A DNA stretch of 64,000 nt from Alphaproteobacteria bacterium. Its GTDB lineage: Bacteria > Pseudomonadota > Alphaproteobacteria > Acetobacterales > Acetobacteraceae. Below are positions 10,315 to 25,112 of this stretch, piece by piece (the first letter of the stretch is position 1; the number at the start of each line of letters is the position of its first letter). The position numbers were made by a program, and so were the translations under genes. The notes below the pieces were generated by a model. The model was not told where the DNA came from, did not search any database, and worked only from the letters and a program-made list of their open reading frames with translations. The stretch is from contig JAPLOI010000070.1 in NCBI GenBank assembly GCA_026400815.1, positions 1 to 64,000 of the forward strand, in the 5' to 3' direction.

Positions 10315-11070
10315 TCAGGCGCGGATCGTGAAGCCGCCGTCGCAGGGGATGGCGGCGCCGGTCACGAAGTTGCTGGCCTGGGAGGCCAGGAACACTGCGA
10401 TACCGGAAAGGTCGTTCGGCTCGCCCCAGCGGCCGGCCGGAGTGCGGGCCAGTACGCTCTCGTTCAGCCCCGGCACCTGGTCGCGCGCCGCACTGGTCAG
10501 TTCGGTGTCGATCCAGCCCGGCAGGACCGCATTGGCCTGGATGTTGTCCTTCGCCCAGGCGGTGGCGCAGACGCGGGTGAACTGCACGATGGCGCCCTTG
10601 CTGGCGGCATAGGGCCCGGCATGCGGCGCGCCCATCAGCGTCATCACCGAGCCGATATTGATGATCTTGCCGCCGCCGGCCTTGAGGAATTCGGGATAGA
10701 CCGCCTGGCTCAGCAGGAAGGCGCTGGTCATGTTGGTGTCCATCACGCGGTGCCACTCCTCCTCGGTGTGGTCCTGCGGGAACTTGCGCACCGCGATGCC
10801 GGCGTTGTTGATGAGGATGTCCAGCCGGCCATGCCTGGCCACCGTCTGGGCGACGAGATCCAGGCATTGCGCCTTCTTGGTCACGTCGGCGGAGATGAAG
10901 CTGGCGCGTTCGCCGAGCGCCTTTGCGGCGGCCTCGCCCTTGGCCTTGTTCCGGCCGGAGAGCACCACGGTGGCACCGGCATTGTAGAGCCCGGTGGCCA
11001 TGCCAAGGCCAATGCCGCCATTGCCGCCGGTAACGATGGCCACGCGGCCGGTGAGATCGAAGGGATTCAT
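10315..11070 (-). CDS. SDR-family oxidoreductase (gluconate/deoxygluconate dehydrogenase-like)
   Basis: A 251-residue classical SDR. The cofactor motif is TGGNGGIGLGMA (residues 13-24), NNAG occurs as LINNAGIAV, and the catalytic set is Ser in IGSVMTLMG and YAASKGA. The end is IPCDGGFTIRA. Overall it resembles 2-deoxygluconate 3-dehydrogenase and gluconate 5-dehydrogenase. It lies 28 bases after the M81 peptidase gene on the same strand, so the two are probably co-transcribed. It converges on the solute-binding protein gene with only 12 bases between stops. Confidence 0.87.
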   Translation of the reverse strand: MNPFDLTGRVAIVTGGNGGIGLGMATGLYNAGATVVLSGRNKAKGEAAAKALGERASFISADVTKKAQCLDLVAQTVARHGRLDILINNAGIAVRKFPQDHTEEEWHRVMDTNMTSAFLLSQAVYPEFLKAGGGKIINIGSVMTLMGAPHAGPYAASKGAIVQFTRVCATAWAKDNIQANAVLPGWIDTELTSAARDQVPGLNESVLARTPAGRWGEPNDLSGIAVFLASQASNFVTGAAIPCDGGFTIRA

Positions 11071-16212: not shown

Positions 16213-16379
16213 CTGCCGGCGATGTCGCCGCGGGTCAGGGCGGCGGTTTTATCGTTCCGCAAGAGATATCGGTCAAGCTTGCGTGGGCGTCCCGCAGCGC
16301 AGCACACGGTGCGCTGGTGCGGTGCGGGGGCGCTCCTGTATATGTCCGGCGCGGCACAAGGCGCCTTATGGAAGACAGT

Positions 16380-17843
16380 ATGGCATTCTCTATCCGCCGC
16401 AGCCTGGCCTGGATGACGATCTCGCAGGCCGGCCAGGCCGTGACCCAGTTCGGCGCCTCCCTGGTTCTGGCGCGGCTGCTCTCCCCCTACGAAACCGGCG
16501 TGTTCGCGATGGCTGCGGCGGTGGCCGGGGTGCTGGGCATGCTGCGCACCATCGGCCTGTCGAATTACGTGATCCGCGCCGCGTCGGTGGACCGGGATTT
16601 CCTCGCCGGCGTCTTCACCGTGAACGCGGCTTTGGCGGTTGCCGTATCGATCTTGATTGTCGGAATGAGCCTGCTGGGCGGGCATCTGCTGGGCGAGCCC
16701 GGGGTGCGCGACGTTCTGCTGGCGCTGGCCATTGTGCCGCTGCTCTCCAGCCTGGAGCTGCTGCCCTCCGCCTGCATCGAGCGGCAGGGCAATTTCCGCG
16801 TGATCTCCATGGTCAATCTTGGCCGCAACCTGGTGGCCACCGGCGTGATGCTGACGGCCGCCTTCGCCGGGCACAGCTACATGAGCCTGGCCTACGGGCA
16901 GCTGGCCGGCGCGGTGACCGCCGTGATCGCGATCAACATTGCCGGGCGCCACCATGCCAGCCTGCGGTTCGGGCTGACGGGCTGGCACGAAATCACGCGC
17001 TACGGCCTCGACATGCTGGCCACGACGGGGGTGGTGCAGCTTTACATGCGCCTCTCCGAATTCATGGTGGGCTGGCTGCTGGGGCTGCACGCGCTGGGGC
17101 TGTATGCGCGCGCCAGCGGCTTGCTGACCATCATGTGGGAAAACTTCCAGCTGATCATCCTGCGCGTGATCTATGTGGACCTCGTGGCACAGAAGCGCAT
17201 GGGGCTGTCGTTCCGCTCCAGCTACCTGCGCGTGTTGTCGGTGGCCACCGCCTTCCTCTGGCCTGCCTTCGGCGGCGTGGCCGTCGTGGCCGGGCCGCTG
17301 CTGCTGACGCTGTATGGGGCGCAGTGGGTCGACGCCCATGTGGCGCTGAGCCTGCTGATGGTGGGTGCGGTCATTGGCACAACCATCCTGATGACCTGGG
17401 AGCTCTTCCTCGCAGCGAACGAGACCCGGCGCATGGTGCGGCTGCAGGCGATCCAGTGTGGTTTCGGGGTGGTGGCATTCGGGGTGGGTTGCCTGTTCGG
17501 CATTGCCGGCGCGGCAATGGCGCGCGTTGTCGAAGCGATGTTCAACGTCGTGCTCTACCGCCCGCATTTGGCACGCCTCACCGACACGACGCTGCGCGAC
17601 GTGCTGCCGATCATGGGGCAGGGGATGGTCCTGATGATGCTGGCCGTCACGCCGGCGGGGCTTGTGATGCTCGCGCACGGGTGGTCCCCGTCTGCGCCGC
17701 TGGCTCAGGTTCTGGGTGGCATCGCGGCCGGCGTGGTGTGCTGGGTCATCGGGCTGCGCGTGCTGGATCATCCGCTGTGGGGCGAGTTCCGCAGGCTGAC
17801 CGGGCGCATCACGGGCAGCCCGGTGGCCGGGCCGACGCCGTGA
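16380..17843 (+). CDS. Oligosaccharide flippase (Wzx/MATE-like lipopolysaccharide biosynthesis protein)
   Basis: A membrane protein of 487 residues (491 if ATG at 16368 is used) with 12-14 hydrophobic segments and the polysaccharide-synthase N-terminus LAWMTISQAGQAVTQFGASL followed by LARLLSPYETGVFAMA. Members flip lipid-linked oligosaccharides across the inner membrane. ATG at 16380 has GGAAG five bases upstream; 16368 has AAGG. It overlaps the following glycosyltransferase by 4 bases, which in turn overlaps a GT2 gene by 4 bases. These three form one envelope-polysaccharide operon. Confidence 0.88.
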   Translation: MAFSIRRSLAWMTISQAGQAVTQFGASLVLARLLSPYETGVFAMAAAVAGVLGMLRTIGLSNYVIRAASVDRDFLAGVFTVNAALAVAVSILIVGMSLLGGHLLGEPGVRDVLLALAIVPLLSSLELLPSACIERQGNFRVISMVNLGRNLVATGVMLTAAFAGHSYMSLAYGQLAGAVTAVIAINIAGRHHASLRFGLTGWHEITRYGLDMLATTGVVQLYMRLSEFMVGWLLGLHALGLYARASGLLTIMWENFQLIILRVIYVDLVAQKRMGLSFRSSYLRVLSVATAFLWPAFGGVAVVAGPLLLTLYGAQWVDAHVALSLLMVGAVIGTTILMTWELFLAANETRRMVRLQAIQCGFGVVAFGVGCLFGIAGAAMARVVEAMFNVVLYRPHLARLTDTTLRDVLPIMGQGMVLMMLAVTPAGLVMLAHGWSPSAPLAQVLGGIAAGVVCWVIGLRVLDHPLWGEFRRLTGRITGSPVAGPTP

Positions 17844-18970
17844 CAGCTGGCGCCAGCCCGCGGCTGCTGGTGGCCGAGCCCACTTTCCGTGGCGGCGACC
17901 ATGCCCCGATCAACGCCGCGCTGGTGCAGGCCCTGAGGCGTGCCGCCGGGCCCGCGGTGCTGGCGACCACGCGCGTGCAGCATGATGCGATCCTGGAAGC
18001 CGATCCGCAGGCTCTGGGCGCCTCGGCATGGCAGGAGATCGAGGTGATGCCGGCGGGGGGCGTGAAGCCCAGCCGTATCCTGGCGCAGTGGCGCACGCTG
18101 TCGGCGCTGGTGGCGCAACACCGGCCCGCGCTGCTGGTGCTGCTCTCCTCCGGGCCTGAGACGCTGTTCGTGGCGCGTGCGCTCGCCCTGCGTTTCCCAC
18201 GGCTGCGCCTGTTCCTGGTGCTGCACGGCGTACTGCCCAGCGCCATCGGCTGGCGGTCACGCGATCCGCGCCGGCGGCTGATCGACCTGCGCGCCGGCCT
18301 GCGCATCGCGCGCCATCCGCGCATCCGCCTGGTGGTGCTGGAGGATTACATCCGCACCGCGGCGCTGCGCCATCGCCTGGCCGACACGCTGCTGGTATGG
18401 CCGCATCCGGTGGTGGAAGGCGAGGCCGCGCCCCCCCGGGCCTGGGCAGCGCCGGCGCGGCTCCGCATCGCCTGGGTGGGCAGCGCCAACAAGCAGAAAG
18501 GGTTCGACGACTTCCTCGGCCTGCACCGCGCATGCGGCGCGCGCCATGATTGGACCGTTGCCGGCGCGGCCAGCGCGGAATACGACACGGCAGCGCTGGC
18601 GGGGCTCGATGTGCCAGACAGCTGGCTGGACAGGCCGACGCTGCTGGGGCGCATCCGCGCGGCGGACTACGCCTTCGTGGCGTTCCGCGGCGCATACGAG
18701 CTCACCGCCAGCGGCTCCCTGCTGGATTGCATCAACCAACGCAAGCCGATCCTGGCCGTACGCAACACCGCGCTGGAGGCCCTGGCGCGGCAGTATGGCC
18801 CGATCGGCCATCTGTGCGACGACCTCGCCGGGGTGCAGGCCCTGCTGGACGACGCGGTGGCGCTGCGCGACGCGGCCGCCTATGCCCGCTTCCAGGCCGC
18901 GCTGGATGCCATCGCCCGCGACAGGCAACCCACGGCGCTGGCCGCCACGATTCGCGCGGATTTCGCATGA
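17840..18970 (+). CDS. Glycosyltransferase-like protein
   Basis: A 376-residue protein starting at GTG in the flippase stop. Its GT-B layout is suggested by an N-terminal nucleotide-fold half (LLVAEPTFRGGDHAPIN) and a C-terminal half with LRIAWVGSANKQKGFDDFL, LLGRIRAADYAFVAF and LLDCINQRKPILAV, the latter resembling the donor-binding region of GT4-like enzymes. The donor and acceptor are unknown. Tight coupling to a flippase upstream and a GT2 enzyme downstream places it in surface polysaccharide assembly. Confidence 0.72.
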   Translation: MTAGASPRLLVAEPTFRGGDHAPINAALVQALRRAAGPAVLATTRVQHDAILEADPQALGASAWQEIEVMPAGGVKPSRILAQWRTLSALVAQHRPALLVLLSSGPETLFVARALALRFPRLRLFLVLHGVLPSAIGWRSRDPRRRLIDLRAGLRIARHPRIRLVVLEDYIRTAALRHRLADTLLVWPHPVVEGEAAPPRAWAAPARLRIAWVGSANKQKGFDDFLGLHRACGARHDWTVAGAASAEYDTAALAGLDVPDSWLDRPTLLGRIRAADYAFVAFRGAYELTASGSLLDCINQRKPILAVRNTALEALARQYGPIGHLCDDLAGVQALLDDAVALRDAAAYARFQAALDAIARDRQPTALAATIRADFA

Positions 18971-19839
18971 CCCAGCTGGCCATCGTCATCGTGCTCTACC
19001 GCAGCCGGGAGGAGCTGGGCCCGCTATGGGACTGCCTGCGGGCGCAAAGCTTCCAGGACTGGCATCTGATCGCGCTGGACAACAGCCCGGAGGATGGCGG
19101 CGGCGATTTCCTCGCAGCCCGCGGCGATGCGCGGGTGGAGGTGGTGCGCAACGCGCAGAACCTGGGCTTCGCCCGCGCCGTGAACCAGGGGCTGCGCCGG
19201 GCGCTGGAGGGCGGCATTCCGCGCAGCCTGCTGCTGAACCCGGATACGGAGTTCGGCCCGGATTTCCTGGCCGGGCTGATGGACGCCTGGGACCAAACCG
19301 GGGCGCAGGTGATCGCCCCGCGGGTGATGTACTACGACGACCCCGACCGGGCCTGGTATGCCGGCGGGCATCTGGAATACGGCTGGATCTTCGCCAACCG
19401 GCACGACCCCTATGTGCCCGGCAGCCGCATTGTGGATTTCGCCAGCGGCTGCTGCCTGGGCATTACGGAGCCGGTGTTGCGGCGCGTGGGGCTGCTGGAC
19501 GAAAGCTTCTTCGTCTACTGGGAGGATACCGATTTCTGCCTGCGGCTGAAGGCGGCCGGCGTGCCGATCCAGTATGTGGAGCAGCCAATGCTGCTGCACC
19601 ATTCCGGCGCCTCCACCGATGGCGGGGAGCGCAGCCCGGTGGGCGAGGTGCTCTATTTCGGCAACTACGCCGTGCTGCTGCGCAAGCATTTCCCGCCGGT
19701 GCATGCGCTGCAGATGCTGCTGCGCACCTTCCTCAAGGAGCAGTCGCGCCCAGGGCTGCGGCCGGGCAGCGGCGGGCGCATCGGCCGCGCATTGCTGCGC
19801 GGCTTCCTGCGCCGCCGCCGACCGCTGCCAACGGTGTAG
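18967..19839 (+). CDS. Glycosyltransferase family 2 (rhamnosyltransferase-like)
   Basis: A 290-residue GT-A enzyme. The N-terminal IVIVLYRSREELG strand, ALDNSPEDGG, NLGFARAVNQGLR and LLLNPDTEFGPDFL (Asp-x-Asp-like donor site) are classic for dTDP-rhamnosyltransferase-type GT2 proteins. It also has the late VYWEDTDFCLRLKAAG motif. It ends 3 bases before the convergent cysK stop. It probably adds a sugar in the same polysaccharide pathway as the two genes before it. Confidence 0.9.
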   Translation: MTQLAIVIVLYRSREELGPLWDCLRAQSFQDWHLIALDNSPEDGGGDFLAARGDARVEVVRNAQNLGFARAVNQGLRRALEGGIPRSLLLNPDTEFGPDFLAGLMDAWDQTGAQVIAPRVMYYDDPDRAWYAGGHLEYGWIFANRHDPYVPGSRIVDFASGCCLGITEPVLRRVGLLDESFFVYWEDTDFCLRLKAAGVPIQYVEQPMLLHHSGASTDGGERSPVGEVLYFGNYAVLLRKHFPPVHALQMLLRTFLKEQSRPGLRPGSGGRIGRALLRGFLRRRRPLPTV

Positions 19840-19842
19840 GGG

Positions 19843-20814
19843 TCAGCCCAGCCCGTCGAACAGCGCCGTGGTGATGTAGCGCTCGGCGAAGCTCGGGATG
19901 ATCACCACGATCTGCTTGCCCGCCATCTCCGGCCGGGCGGCAAGCTTGAGGGCGGCGGCCATCGCGGCACCCGAGGAGATGCCGCCGGGAATGCCCTCGC
20001 GGCGGGCCAGGCGGCGCGCGGCGGCCATGGATTCGTCGCCGGTGACCTGGATGATCTCGTCGTACACCTTGGTATCCAGCACCGTCGGCACGAAGCCGGC
20101 GCCGATGCCCTGGATCGGGTGCGGCGCGGGCGATCCGCCGGAGAGCACGGGGCTGGCCGCCGGCTCCACCGCCACGATGTGCACGCCCGGCTTCTTCGCC
20201 TTCAGCGCCTGGCCCACGCCGGTGATGGTGCCGCCGGTGCCAACGCCGCTCACCACCGCATCCACACCGCCGGCGGTATCGTGCCAGATCTCCTCGGCCG
20301 TGGTGCGGCGATGGATATCGGGGTTGGATGCCGTGCCGAACTGGTCGGCCGTCACGCTGCCGGGGTGTTGGGCGAGCAATTCCTTCGCCCGCGCCACGGC
20401 GCCGTTCATGCCCTTCTCGCGCGGGGTGAGATCGATCTCCGCACCCAGGTATTGCAACATCTTGCGCCGCTCGATCGAAACACTCTCGGGCATGGTCAGG
20501 ATCAGCCGGTAGCCGCGCGCGGCGCAGACGAAGGCCAGGCCGATGCCGGTGTTGCCGCTGGTCGGCTCGATGATCACGGCGCCGGGGCCAATCTTGCCCT
20601 CGGCCTCCATCACCTCGATCATGTTGACACCGATGCGGTCCTTCACGCTGGCGAGCGGGTTGAAGAACTCCAGCTTCAGCAGCACGTCCGCCTTGAGGCC
20701 GTCTTCCTTGGTGATGTTGGGGATGCGCACCAGCGGCGTGTTGCCGATGGTCTCGGCGATGCTGTCGTAGATGCGGCCGCGCAGCGGCTTGTCGAGCTTG
20801 AGGGTGCTGGCCAT
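19843..20814 (-). CDS. cysK: Cysteine synthase A
   Basis: A 323-residue O-acetylserine sulfhydrylase, a fold-type II PLP enzyme that makes cysteine from O-acetylserine and sulfide. Visible are IGNTPLVRI, the PLP lysine in LASVKDRIG, the substrate loop [22 protein letters not shown] for the cofactor phosphate, and [11 protein letters not shown]. Normal length. With metY 13 kb away, the window has two sulfide-assimilating enzymes. An inverted repeat just upstream (20861-20894) could control it. Confidence 0.93.
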
Positions 20815-21948: not shown

Positions 21949-22323
21949 CTAGCCGCGGCCCACCAGCACCACCCCGGCCACGATCAGCGCAATGCCCGCC
22001 ACCCGCGTGGCCGAGACCGCATCGGCGAACACGAAGTAGCCCAGCACCGCGGCCAGCACGAAGCTGAGCCCGACGAAGGGATAGGCCTGGGACAGTTCCA
22101 CGCGGGAGAGCACGCCCAGCCACAGCACCGTGGCGATGCCGTACAGTGCCAGCCCGCCCATCACGCCAGGGCTGGTGAGCACCGCCACCACAACCCGCAC
22201 CGGCGCGCCCGTGGCAAGCGCCTCGTTCATCGGCCCGGCCGTCATGCCCAGCTTCATCAGCACCTGGGCCACGGCGCCCAGGCCGACGCTGGCCAGGATC
22301 AGCAGCAGGATCGTGCCGTTCAT
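21949..22323 (-). CDS. Small EamA/SMR-type transporter (ArnE-like)
   Basis: A 124-residue protein with four hydrophobic helices (about residues 4-20, 45-65, 75-95, 103-122). It shows the small multidrug-resistance/half-EamA pattern: VAQVLMKLGM at helix 1 and LSRVELSQAYPFVGLSFVLAAV at helix 3, close to ArnE/ArnF subunits that flip undecaprenyl-phosphate-aminoarabinose. It starts 3 bases after the HAD-UbiA gene, so it is co-translated. In that context a polyprenyl-phosphate-sugar flippase is more likely than a drug exporter; this is inference. Confidence 0.8.
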   Translation of the reverse strand: MNGTILLLILASVGLGAVAQVLMKLGMTAGPMNEALATGAPVRVVVAVLTSPGVMGGLALYGIATVLWLGVLSRVELSQAYPFVGLSFVLAAVLGYFVFADAVSATRVAGIALIVAGVVLVGRG

Positions 22324-22326
22324 CGC

Positions 22327-23793
22327 CTATTTCATCCCCAGCCCGGTGCGCGCGGCCAGCATCACCGCCACCACCGCCAGCACGATCGCCCATGTCACCC
22401 GGTCGCGCGCCGCATACAGGATGGGATCGTGGTGCATGTAGCCGCGCGCGGTGGAAAGCCACATGCGGCAGTTCCACAGCAGCACCAGCGGCACGATGCC
22501 CCACAGCAGGCCCGGTGCCGCGAAGCGCCCGGTGGCGGCCTCGTTCTGCACATACAGCGCCAGCACCAGGCTGGCGGCGAAGGAGGCGCAGACGCCGAAC
22601 GTTTGCAGGATCTCGATGTCACCGGGCCCATAGCCGCGCCCGGCCACGGTGCGGCGCACCCGCCCAGCGCTCTCGCGCAACTCCGCCACCCGCTTCACCA
22701 GGGCGAGGCTGAGGAACAGGAAGATCGAGAAGGCCAGCAGCCACAGCGACAGCGAATGCCCCGTCGCCTCGCCGCCGCCGAACATGCGGATGGTGAACAG
22801 GCCGGCCAGCGTGAACACATCCACCAGCGGCTGGCGCTTCAACGAGAGCGAATAGGCCATGGAGGCACCGGCATAGATCGCCACCACCAGCAGGATACCG
22901 GCCTGCCAGGACAGCAGCGCGGCCAGTGCCAGCAGCGCCGCCCCCAGCCCGATGCCCCATCCCAGCGGCGCCGCCCCCGATGCGAAGGGCCGGTGCCGCT
23001 TGGCGGAGTGGGCGCGGTCGGCGGCGAGATCGAGCAGGTCGTTCACCAGGTAGATACCGGAAGCGGCGGCACAGAACGCCGCGAAGGCCTGCAGCCCGCC
23101 CCACCAGCTGCCCAGATCCAGCAAGGCGTAGGAGGTGAGGATGGGCACGAAGACCAGCATGTTCTTCACCCACTGGTGCGGCCGCATGGCGCGCAGCAGC
23201 GTGGGCGCCAGATGGGGGCGCGTGGCGATGCGCCGTTCCACCGGCACCCGCACGCGCGCGGCCACGCCGGCGGAGGTTTCCACCAGCACCGCGGCACCGG
23301 CCCATTCCCACACGCCCAGATCGGCACGCGCATCCCCGGCATAGACGAAGCCGCCGCGCCCGAAGCGTTCCACCAACGCCGCGGCCTTGGCAGCCCCCTT
23401 GAGGTTGCGGGTGGCGGAGGAGGCGATCACCTCGTCGAACAGGCCCAGATGCTCGGCCACGCGATGGGCCACCGCCTCGTTCGCCGCGGTGGCCAGCACG
23501 ATGCGCCGCCCGGCCGCACGCTGGTCGCGCAGGTAGTCCAGCAGCGCCTCGTTGTAGGGAAGCAATGCGGGATCGGTGGGCGCGGCTGCCGCCACCCGCG
23601 CCTTCAGCGCCGCCCGGCCGCCGGCGAACGCCCCCAGCAGGGTGCCGAACCGCATCCCGCCGGCCAGCGCGAGCAGACCTTCCACCAGCGTGTCGGTTCG
23701 CACCAGCGTGCCGTCGAGGTCAACGCAAAGCGGCAGGTCGGCATGGGCCGACTGCGGCAGTGCCAGGGTGTGTGCAGCGCCGGTGTCGCTCAA
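22327..23793 (-). CDS. HAD phosphatase-UbiA prenyltransferase fusion (DPPR synthase-like)
   Basis: A 488-residue two-domain protein. Residues ~18-200 are a HAD phosphatase domain (CVDLDGTLVRTDTL, later YAGDARADLGVW). Residues ~205-485 are a UbiA-type membrane prenyltransferase with RPHQWVKNMLVFVPI, the first Asp-rich motif NDLLDLAADRAHSAKRHRP and ~8 membrane helices. This fusion resembles the decaprenyl-phosphate phosphoribosyltransferase branch of UbiA, where HAD would remove the 5-phosphate. It overlaps the upstream membrane-protein gene by 4 bases and is followed by a small flippase-like gene. It probably makes a polyprenyl-phosphate pentose for envelope glycosylation. Confidence 0.88.
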   Translation of the reverse strand: MSDTGAAHTLALPQSAHADLPLCVDLDGTLVRTDTLVEGLLALAGGMRFGTLLGAFAGGRAALKARVAAAAPTDPALLPYNEALLDYLRDQRAAGRRIVLATAANEAVAHRVAEHLGLFDEVIASSATRNLKGAAKAAALVERFGRGGFVYAGDARADLGVWEWAGAAVLVETSAGVAARVRVPVERRIATRPHLAPTLLRAMRPHQWVKNMLVFVPILTSYALLDLGSWWGGLQAFAAFCAAASGIYLVNDLLDLAADRAHSAKRHRPFASGAAPLGWGIGLGAALLALAALLSWQAGILLVVAIYAGASMAYSLSLKRQPLVDVFTLAGLFTIRMFGGGEATGHSLSLWLLAFSIFLFLSLALVKRVAELRESAGRVRRTVAGRGYGPGDIEILQTFGVCASFAASLVLALYVQNEAATGRFAAPGLLWGIVPLVLLWNCRMWLSTARGYMHHDPILYAARDRVTWAIVLAVVAVMLAARTGLGMK

Positions 23794-25112
23794 CGAGGCT
23801 GCTCCGGGCAGGGCGCCGGGCAGCCGACGCGGACATCATCGAAGCCGGTCGCGAGAGCCCAGGCGCGATCGAGCGTGGTGGCGCCGATCAGTGCGACCAG
23901 GACCACCACCGAGGCAAGATACACTCTTGCTGCCGTGCCGCCCGGGCGCAGCATCGGCGCCAGACCCGCGCCGAGCGCGAAGACCAGGAAATGCGTATGG
24001 GCCGCATAGAGAAAGATGCTGCCGCGGAACTGGAAATCCAGGTGAAAGGCGATATTCGTCAGCAGCATCGCCCAAAGCCCCAGCGCCAGCCAGCGCGTGG
24101 GCCGATGCACCAGCGCGGCCAGCGCGCCCGCCAGCCAGAACACGTGCCAGGCCAGGAAGGCCACCTGCCCCACCGCATCGAAATCCGGCGCGCGGAAATC
24201 GAGCATGGTGATTCCGTCGGCCTCCAGCGGCACCGCGGTGAAGCGCGGGGAGACCATGGTGAAGCCCACCAGCCGCAGCACCGTCTCGAACAGGCCTTCG
24301 CGGACGCCCTTGGTGCGCTGCCAGTAAACCTCCTTCGCCACCGCGACCGGATCGGCCAGGAAGGACGCCACCGTGTCGAACCACACCAGCGCCGTCAGCA
24401 CCGCGCACAGCAAGGCGACCCACAGGCCATAGCGGATCATCGGCCGGATCGCGCCCGCAAACCCGCGATGGCGCCACCAGGCCAGCGCCTCGGCAAAGAC
24501 CGGCTGCATCAGGTTGGTGGTGGTCACGCCGTAGGAGAACACCGCCAGGACAAAGCGCATCAGCCGGCCATGGCGCAAATCGGCAAGCCGCCACACCGCC
24601 AGCAGCCAGGTGGCCGCGATTCCCAGTGCGGCCGGCCCGTAGGCTTCCGGAATGATCGACGTGATCACCTGGCAGCCGGAGACGGCGAACAACAGCGCCA
24701 ACGCCACCGCCGTGCCGCCGGCCACCGCGAGGCTGCGCAGATAGAGGAACACCACTCCCACCGTGACAGCGCCGAGCCCCGCCATCACCAGGGCTGCGGC
24801 CTGCTTCGGCGCGAACCCCAGGGCGAGAAACGGCCATGCCAGCGGCCGCAGCAGCACGAACAGCGGGTGCTTCACATTGCCGCGCTCATGCTCCTCCAGC
24901 GCCAGGATCGCCACGGAGCGCGGCGGGTCGAAATCGAAGGCGAGATTGTAGAAGTCGAAATACTGGCCCTGGGCCAGCCGCAGCCCCAGCGCCGCATACA
25001 GCCCCAGCGCCCCGAGCGCGAGCAGTGCCGCCATCCGCAGGTCCATGCGGTTCACGGGAAGCGAGAGCGGGGCCATGTTCGCAGAGGCCTGCATCGGGGC
25101 GAATGGATCCAT
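23790..25112 (-). CDS. Polytopic membrane protein, possible GT-C glycosyltransferase
   Basis: About 440 residues with roughly 10-12 membrane helices. I do not recognise a named family. After the first helix a large loop carries acidic and His residues (FDPPRSVAILALEEHERGNVKHPLFV). This layout resembles GT-C transferases, where an acidic residue in the first periplasmic loop is catalytic. ATG at 25112 is used; 25094 and 25076 are alternatives. Its stop overlaps the HAD-UbiA start (ATGA), so the two products are coupled. The likely job is transfer of a polyprenyl-linked sugar. Confidence 0.65.
   Translation of the reverse strand: MDPFAPMQASANMAPLSLPVNRMDLRMAALLALGALGLYAALGLRLAQGQYFDFYNLAFDFDPPRSVAILALEEHERGNVKHPLFVLLRPLAWPFLALGFAPKQAAALVMAGLGAVTVGVVFLYLRSLAVAGGTAVALALLFAVSGCQVITSIIPEAYGPAALGIAATWLLAVWRLADLRHGRLMRFVLAVFSYGVTTTNLMQPVFAEALAWWRHRGFAGAIRPMIRYGLWVALLCAVLTALVWFDTVASFLADPVAVAKEVYWQRTKGVREGLFETVLRLVGFTMVSPRFTAVPLEADGITMLDFRAPDFDAVGQVAFLAWHVFWLAGALAALVHRPTRWLALGLWAMLLTNIAFHLDFQFRGSIFLYAAHTHFLVFALGAGLAPMLRPGGTAARVYLASVVVLVALIGATTLDRAWALATGFDDVRVGCPAPCPEQPR

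Follow-up and report, generated by a model that had tools for sequence, protein, structure and literature searches.

The window, a stretch of 64,000 nucleotides (positions 1 to 64,000 of contig JAPLOI010000070.1, assembly GCA_026400815.1, a bacterium of the Acetobacteraceae in the Alphaproteobacteria), carries three adjoining genes, P0001, P0002 and P0003, which on sequence comparison and predicted structure probably encode a module for extracytoplasmic ribofuranosylation, comprising synthesis, flipping and transfer of a lipid-linked ribofuranose. We based this reading on the gene order and its conservation, the family and catalytic residues of P0002, the predicted fold of P0001 and the fact that no DprE1 was found, and from these we infer the activities, the lipid, its flipping, the acceptor and the linkage. 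P0002 is a HAD-UbiA fusion, the UbiA half of which would transfer 5-phosphoribose from phosphoribosyl pyrophosphate (PRPP) to a polyprenyl phosphate, in all probability undecaprenyl phosphate, at the cytoplasmic side, whereupon the HAD half would remove the 5-phosphate from the polyprenyl-phosphate-5-phosphoribose to give polyprenyl-phosphate-ribofuranose. P0003, acting as a dimer of the ArnE/F type, would bring this lipid to the periplasmic leaflet, and P0001, a predicted glycosyltransferase of the GT-C superfamily whose active site would lie at the first loop on the periplasmic side, would pass the sugar on to a glycan of the envelope, for which a surface polysaccharide is the likeliest candidate. 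The three genes form a tight unit: P0001 and P0002 overlap by 4 bases (TTGA) at the TTG start of P0002, 3 bases separate P0002 from P0003, and a gap of 71 bases follows before the beta-helix gene P0004. An earlier note on this DNA had described three overlapping or nearly touching genes of one direction with a trailing beta-helix gene, and all four lie on the minus strand where it placed them. Its further proposal that they serve the pentosylation of an envelope polymer is partly supported: the genes are best read as making, flipping and transferring a polyprenyl-phosphate-pentose, but the arabinose analogy that accompanied the proposal has to be corrected.

The HAD-UbiA fusion is the most diagnostic part of the module and is common to it and to the three-component pentofuranose system of Citrobacter youngae O1/O2, consisting of ORF15 (PRP-PPPRS), ORF14 (MATE) and ORF12 (GT136) (Kelly et al. 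2024, PMC11127046). In P0002 a HAD domain at about residues 20-160 (PF12710, 8.6e-10) is followed by a UbiA domain at about residues 194-480 (PF01040), both above the Pfam cut-off, and the protein is a full-length member of NCBIfam NF006088 (PRK08238; E 6.3e-167, 556 bits versus a cut-off of 351). The NCBIfam models ranked next were decaprenyl-phosphate phosphoribosyltransferases, which scored under their own cut-offs, and the only strong solved relatives were the PDB entries 8j8j and 8j8k of M. tuberculosis Rv3806c (8j8j, E 6.9e-24). When P0002 was aligned with nine relatives (10 rows), D25 and D27 in the HAD loop, N251, D252, D255 and D259 in the NDxxDxxxD loop, R368 and E371 proved invariant, D25 of the DLDGT motif being the nucleophilic aspartate expected of a HAD phosphatase. 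The residues named for ORF15, a proven enzyme, are D18, N247, D248, D251, D255, R366 and E369 (PMC11127046); P0002 D25, N251, D252, D255, D259, R368 and E371 correspond to them by motif and spacing, not by alignment. In addition, the Mg/PRPP contact residues of Rv3806c (PMC10994848) were placed on P0002 by pairwise alignment, and nine of the 11 were identical (Rv3806c/P0002: R22/R204, K28/K210, Y70/Y248, N73/N251, D77/D255, K87/K265, R90/R268, Y138/Y314 and K143/K319). The two substitutions were Y157/F333, at a position occupied by F in some mycobacteria (PMC10994848), and Q135/S311; K208, also a named contact, faces P0002 R381 in a gapped stretch and was left uncounted. By these sequence comparisons the UbiA domain groups with phosphoribosyltransferases and not with the quinone or haem enzymes. 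The earlier note had assigned it to the decaprenyl-phosphoribose synthase (DPPRS) type, and neither NCBIfam nor the PDB gave the clustering with quinone or haem prenyltransferases that would speak against this assignment. A match to NF006088/PRK08238 occurred in 98 of 397 genomes of the bacterial family (E 1e-80). P0002 had no match in phage records at 1e-10; one phage case is mentioned in PMC11127046. In Azospirillum lipoferum 4B the UbiA gene (L091:4516-7422), followed by an EamA gene, is annotated as 968 aa, about twice the usual length.

The choice of pentose depends on DprE1. In G011, a genome of the same family, HAD-UbiA, DprE1 (NF053785, 1.1e-108) and a DprE2-like short-chain dehydrogenase/reductase (SDR; NF053786, 3.8e-53) lie side by side, the latter two scoring below their NCBIfam cut-offs. 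With the G011 DprE1 as the query (E 1e-5), no match was found in the draft genomes of the genus, that is, in the source genome and eight of eight congeners (0/9). Among the 36 genomes searched in this way five matched, at full length in G011 only, while the other four matches covered a portion of the N-terminal half, with identities of 25-32%. This protein search was preferred because PF04030 is a weak probe: it was negative, and the G011 DprE1 itself hits only PF01565 in Pfam (E 0.01). Since no DprE1 was found, ribofuranose would be the default product of PRPP transfer and dephosphorylation, and the lipid donor is most likely polyprenyl-phosphate-ribofuranose and not its arabinose counterpart. 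Of the genome search for DprE1/DprE2 homologues that the earlier note had suggested as a check, the DprE1 part thus went against its mycobacterial arabinose analogy.

P0001 matched no family in Pfam or NCBIfam, and a profile search for solved relatives by sequence found none. DUF6080 (PF19558), a family without known function for which our literature search found no publication, was matched by seven of the 16 members of alignment A3 (best E 1.1e-8) but not by P0001 itself. The AlphaFold model of P0001 (17 sequences; pLDDT 83.6, pTM 0.87) gave nine Foldseek rows with E ≤ 0.001, namely Pmt4, AglB, oligosaccharyltransferase/translocon and EmbC entries. A second structural comparison, which covered Foldseek's own top 1000, matched the model to ALG12 (Z 24.3, rmsd 3.4, 343 aligned), ArnT (Z 21.8, rmsd 4.1, 345 aligned), AftB (Z 19.5, rmsd 4.1, 342 aligned), AftD (Z 18.9, rmsd 4.8, 350 aligned), AftA (Z 17.4, rmsd 4.0, 350 aligned) and EmbC (Z 14.8, rmsd 5.1, 356 aligned), with Z values of 12-20 for the mycobacterial arabinosyltransferases overall. 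Among the 50 matches listed, 46 were GT-C enzymes or oligosaccharyltransferase/translocon entries and four were GPI-transamidase entries, the chains matched within complexes presumably being their GT-C-fold subunits. YNLAFDFDP (D60, D62), KHP (H82), H357, R363 and H372 were invariant in a 17-row alignment, in which a CxxxC at 431-435 was nearly so. In the model a helix at 22-48 precedes YNLAFDFDP, with KHP further on, an arrangement that fits a first periplasmic loop bearing an acidic residue for catalysis. Judged by its model, P0001 is a member of the GT-C superfamily, with transmembrane (TM) helices, an acidic loop after TM1 and similarity to solved GT-C structures. Thus, the structure prediction proposed for this "GT-C-like" protein returned a GT-C fold and not a transporter; Foldseek's transporter rows (e.g., OxlT, E 0.058, prob 0.15) were far under the GT-C rows. 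A role as a polymerase or ligase had little support, as RodA, which we take to be of the GT-C_B class, appeared only at rank 45 (E 0.27). The P0001 copy of one congener (L045, genome G003, a draft assembly) is reported with one in-frame TAG.

P0003 belongs to the SMR/EamA-like small proteins and is nearest to ArnF (1.4e-15); its first hydrophobic segment has no acidic residue. The linkage of the three genes was followed in 18 P0001 loci, found by a pattern search of genome contigs using the P0001 alignment, the two short peptide patterns of which will miss distant relatives. The named records carrying P0001 relatives bear the labels Acetobacteraceae, Rhodospirillales, Asaia, Paracraurococcus, Rhodopila, Alphaproteobacteria and Proteobacteria, and nearly all are metagenome bins. 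Linkage of P0001 and P0002 exceeds chance, because P0002 adjoins P0001 in 15 of the 18 loci (eight within the genus and L066, L069, L070, L071, L072, L073 and L074 outside it), with a rearranged gene order in L066 and in L073, which is from the cultured Rhodopila globiformis DSM 161. P0003 is also in the module at 11 loci, and in three of the remaining seven (L062, L071, L072) the contig breaks off within P0002. A distant P0001-like gene (22-25% identity) was seen on the Vibrio alfacsensis plasmid NZ_CP140104.1 (L088), the one viewed of three matching plasmids, where it adjoins PrsK/PrsR, has exosortase-associated glycosylation genes near it and is separated by 7.4 kb from paired HAD-UbiA and EamA genes.

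Table 1. Genes of the module, of its surroundings in the window, and of the metallo-beta-lactamase (MBL)-fold protein in other loci (L-numbers denote loci)
Feature	Position	Strand	Remarks
P0001, predicted GT-C glycosyltransferase, polytopic	25112-23790	minus	440 aa
P0002, HAD-UbiA fusion	23793-22327	minus	488 aa, TTG start
P0003, ArnE/F-like (EamA/SMR-type) small transporter, predicted polyprenyl-phosphate-ribose flippase	22323-21949	minus	124 aa
P0004, right-handed beta-helix protein, hydrophobic N-terminus	21877-20930	minus	315 aa; PF13229 2.9e-11
PALP-family gene	19843-20814	minus	cysteine synthase-like by our own reading
Family 2 glycosyltransferase	18937-19839	plus	PF00535 7.5e-17; start not fixed
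Wzx-like polysaccharide flippase gene	16362-17843	plus	PF13440 1.7e-48; start not fixed
MBL-fold protein by P0001	L066:4349-5758	minus
MBL-fold protein by P0001	L069:4956-6353	plus
MBL-fold protein by P0001	L070:6400-7806	plus
MBL-fold protein by P0001	L049:2507-3919	minus
MBL-fold protein by P0001	L072, L074, L075
MBL-fold protein, source genome	L216:8944-10335	plus	62% identity

Past the PALP-family gene, the family 2 glycosyltransferase and Wzx-like flippase genes lie on the plus strand, the latter, opposite in strand to the module, at 3.1 kb from P0004 and 4.1 kb from P0003. The other flank holds a divergent gene for a family 3 solute-binding protein and, by eye, ABC and permease frames. 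The GC content is 0.50 over positions 1-2000 of the window and 0.64-0.73 across the remainder.

P0004, whose Beta_helix match (PF13229) is above the Pfam cut-off, is in place at eight of eight congeners, and the earlier note had mentioned it as a secreted protein following the three genes. It does follow the module, but it probably lies outside the core: it was not found beside P0001 in the loci examined outside the genus, three further paralogues are present in the source genome, and in the searched genomes its nearest relative from outside the genus (61%, in G025) lies on a different contig from the HAD-UbiA gene. Outside the genus another protein, of about 465-470 aa with an MBL fold and an SHGHPDH motif, adjoins P0001 in seven of 12 distinct loci, being in pieces in L072 and L074. 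Neither Pfam nor NCBIfam gave a family for it above the cut-off, and in seven of the nine genus genomes, the source genome included, it is unlinked to P0001. Its model (pLDDT 74.8) matches MBL hydrolases; in the Foldseek ranking FrsH comes first, and the hydroxylase CmlA has rank 14.

Several observations weigh against the ribofuranosylation module as proposed. The source genome is a 5.1 Mb draft of 89 contigs (97.55% complete), and three of the 18 P0001 loci (L067, L068, L075) have no P0002 in the stretch fetched, which measures 7.4 kb for L068 and reaches only about 1.5 kb past P0001 in L075. An unlinked epimerase of the ORF13 type, if one is encoded elsewhere in the genome, would give xylose. 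In eight of the 12 non-genus P0001 loci, several of them short stretches, no Wzx-like gene is seen. The remaining points concern P0003. The ArnE-like character given to this small transporter in the earlier note holds for its SMR/EamA type and for its proximity to ArnF, but the scores are under the NCBIfam equivalog cut-offs of both ArnF (57.8 of 99 bits) and ArnE (37.5 of 92 bits). The loci of G002 (L051) and G006 (L046) lack an orthologue of it, and G034 has no P0003 match genome-wide at E 0.001. In view of this patchy presence, P0003 may be replaceable, or a nearby Wzx/MOP protein may flip the donor. In L046 and L051 there is no EMR gene between the HAD-UbiA and beta-helix genes, and elsewhere in these drafts only paralogues of 37-43% identity occur.

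A surface polysaccharide was favoured as the acceptor because a Wzx-like gene and frames like those of family 2 glycosyltransferases recur near the module, the former in the window, in five of eight congeners and in four of the 12 distinct non-genus loci (L066, L069, L070, L073; 21-27% identity), the latter by eye in L066, L070 and L073; other loci, some of them short, are without these. It is possible, though on the whole unlikely, that the same donor serves another acceptor, such as lipid A, the lipopolysaccharide core or a secreted protein, with P0001 being used in the manner of ArnT or Pmt. ArnT and Pmt are indeed among the closest folds to P0001, P0003 is ArnE/F-like, a beta-helix protein follows the module in the genus, and the distant P0001-like gene of Vibrio shares its locus with exosortase-associated genes. 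However, the recurrence of the Wzx-like gene and of the glycosyltransferase frames argues for a surface polysaccharide, and the proven relatives modify O polysaccharide (PMC11127046).

A second alternative changes the sugar: an unlinked SDR epimerase would convert the lipid-linked ribose to xylofuranose prior to flipping, like ORF13 of C. youngae O2, for which Xylf from the same donor has been demonstrated (PMC11127046). SDR genes do occur in the window (e.g., 10315-11070), but none is in the module or separates it from the adjoining genes, although no genome-wide search for such an epimerase was made, and we consider this variant improbable.

Still less probable is arabinofuranosylation of the mycobacterial type, according to which DprE1/DprE2 encoded elsewhere would epimerise the lipid-linked ribose before its flipping and transfer. 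Besides the structural matches of P0001 to AftB, AftD, AftA and EmbC, it is favoured by the neighbourhoods of HAD-UbiA relatives. We sampled the loci of 110 further full-length fusions and scored neighbours within about 6 kb, some stretches ending at contig ends. Of 31 class matches besides that of the window itself, six encoded UbiA alone or were truncated and were left out; of 49 phylum rows we kept 38 and removed the source genome, two rows that had been included before and eight that were truncated or UbiA-only; and 47 of 100 family places were taken, the genus of the window being left out. With home-made models (cut-offs set by us at 40 bits for EMR and GtrA and 200 bits for DprE1), DprE1 was nearby in 63 of the 110 loci. 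However, in a tree of 133 HAD-UbiA rows made by a quick method, the clade of the window (31 rows, two pairs of which are identical in sequence; SH-aLRT 100) had 22 rows with EMR and without DprE1 and only two with DprE1 nearby. Moreover, none of the 18 tree rows with a P0001-like gene in the locus had DprE1 in the stretch (L070 and L191 are one locus, and L159-161 match P0001 weakly), and DprE1 was not found in any of the nine genus genomes. Finally, a quinone, haem or other prenyltransferase with unrelated neighbours is scarcely credible despite the breadth of the UbiA superfamily (PF01040), since the best named models and solved structures are phosphoribosyltransferases, P0002 keeps K210, Y248 and the K/R cluster, and the quinone UbiA (TIGR01474, 3.1e-102) and heme o synthase (6e-101) of the genome sit on other contigs.

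The same sample hinted at a division between module types. The 63 loci with DprE1 included 27 with GtrA, six with EMR and 30 with neither, whereas the 47 without it included 27 with EMR, four with GtrA and 16 with neither. This association of EMR or GtrA with DprE1 is suggestive, but it is not established and we do not claim it, because the tree offered only three independent contrasts on well supported branches (seven in all; median sign-test p 0.25). Six loci (L131, L132, L134, L136, L139, L147) combine DprE1 with an EMR-type protein, without a detected DprE2-like SDR, and break the pattern of EMR with ribose and GtrA with arabinose. A bolder proposal, which we put forward only tentatively and consider doubtful, is that ribofuranosylation outside the cytoplasm has been solved a second time in this module, which would have been put together independently: ArnE/F-like flippases would carry polyprenyl-phosphate-ribofuranose, GtrA proteins would go with DprE1/E2 modules that make arabinofuranose, P0001 would represent a new GT-C family, and the MBL-fold protein would be a fourth component that edits the donor or the product.

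A HAD-UbiA fusion combined with a predicted flippase and a GT-C enzyme has a precedent in the Citrobacter system of 2024, and in our literature search PMC11127046 was the only paper describing such a system by title or abstract; its supplement may already list Acetobacteraceae. The module resembles that system in the HAD-UbiA domain order and catalytic motifs (matched by motif and spacing), with a UbiA domain carrying DPPRS active-site residues and a HAD phosphatase, and in having a predicted flippase and a GT-C gene, predicted in our case; in neither would ribose call for DprE1/E2. They differ in the flippase, which is a MATE protein in C. youngae and an SMR/EamA-type, ArnE/F-like transporter here, with no MATE gene inside the module, and in origin, the former being enterobacterial and the latter alphaproteobacterial. 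As described, ORF12 has a C-terminal carbohydrate-binding domain after its 11th TM helix, which sets it apart from P0001 (PMC11127046), the shorter protein at 440 aa. Flipping in the C. youngae system was inferred rather than measured, and with ORF15 as a probe further candidate systems, in unknown glycans, were reported (PMC11127046). The mycobacterial decaprenyl-phosphate-arabinose pathway (Rv3806c, Rv3807c, DprE1/E2, Rv3789, Emb/Aft) shares with the module the UbiA phosphoribosyltransferase, a small transporter and GT-C transferases, but it includes DprE1, of which none was found here, and its phosphatase, Rv3807c, is unrelated to the HAD family (PMC11127046), whereas that of the module is a fused HAD domain. 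A small SMR-like transporter and a GT-C enzyme are likewise common to the module and the ArnE/ArnF and ArnT system, which adds aminoarabinose to lipid A, although P0003 falls under the ArnE/ArnF cut-offs. The donor of the ArnT system is made by ArnC, whereas that of the module would come from a UbiA phosphoribosyltransferase. As for PRK08238/NF006088, of which P0002 is a full member, its name, "UbiA family prenyltransferase", is silent on the substrate.

According to PMC11127046, known ribofuranosyltransferases form beta linkages only, and alpha-linked ribofuranose needed another route, which the same study supplied. The module described here would be a minimal three-gene version in another bacterial class; its predicted flippase is of a different kind, and its GT-C protein is a candidate for a new family. 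It offers a predicted substrate and functional name for part of PRK08238, the sub-clade without DprE1, and the presence or absence of DprE1 in such modules suggests a simple genome-based guess at the pentose a bacterium adds. It also leads us to expect envelope glycans with ribofuranose in the relatives of the source genome, many of them known only from metagenomes, and in Rhodopila globiformis, which is in culture.

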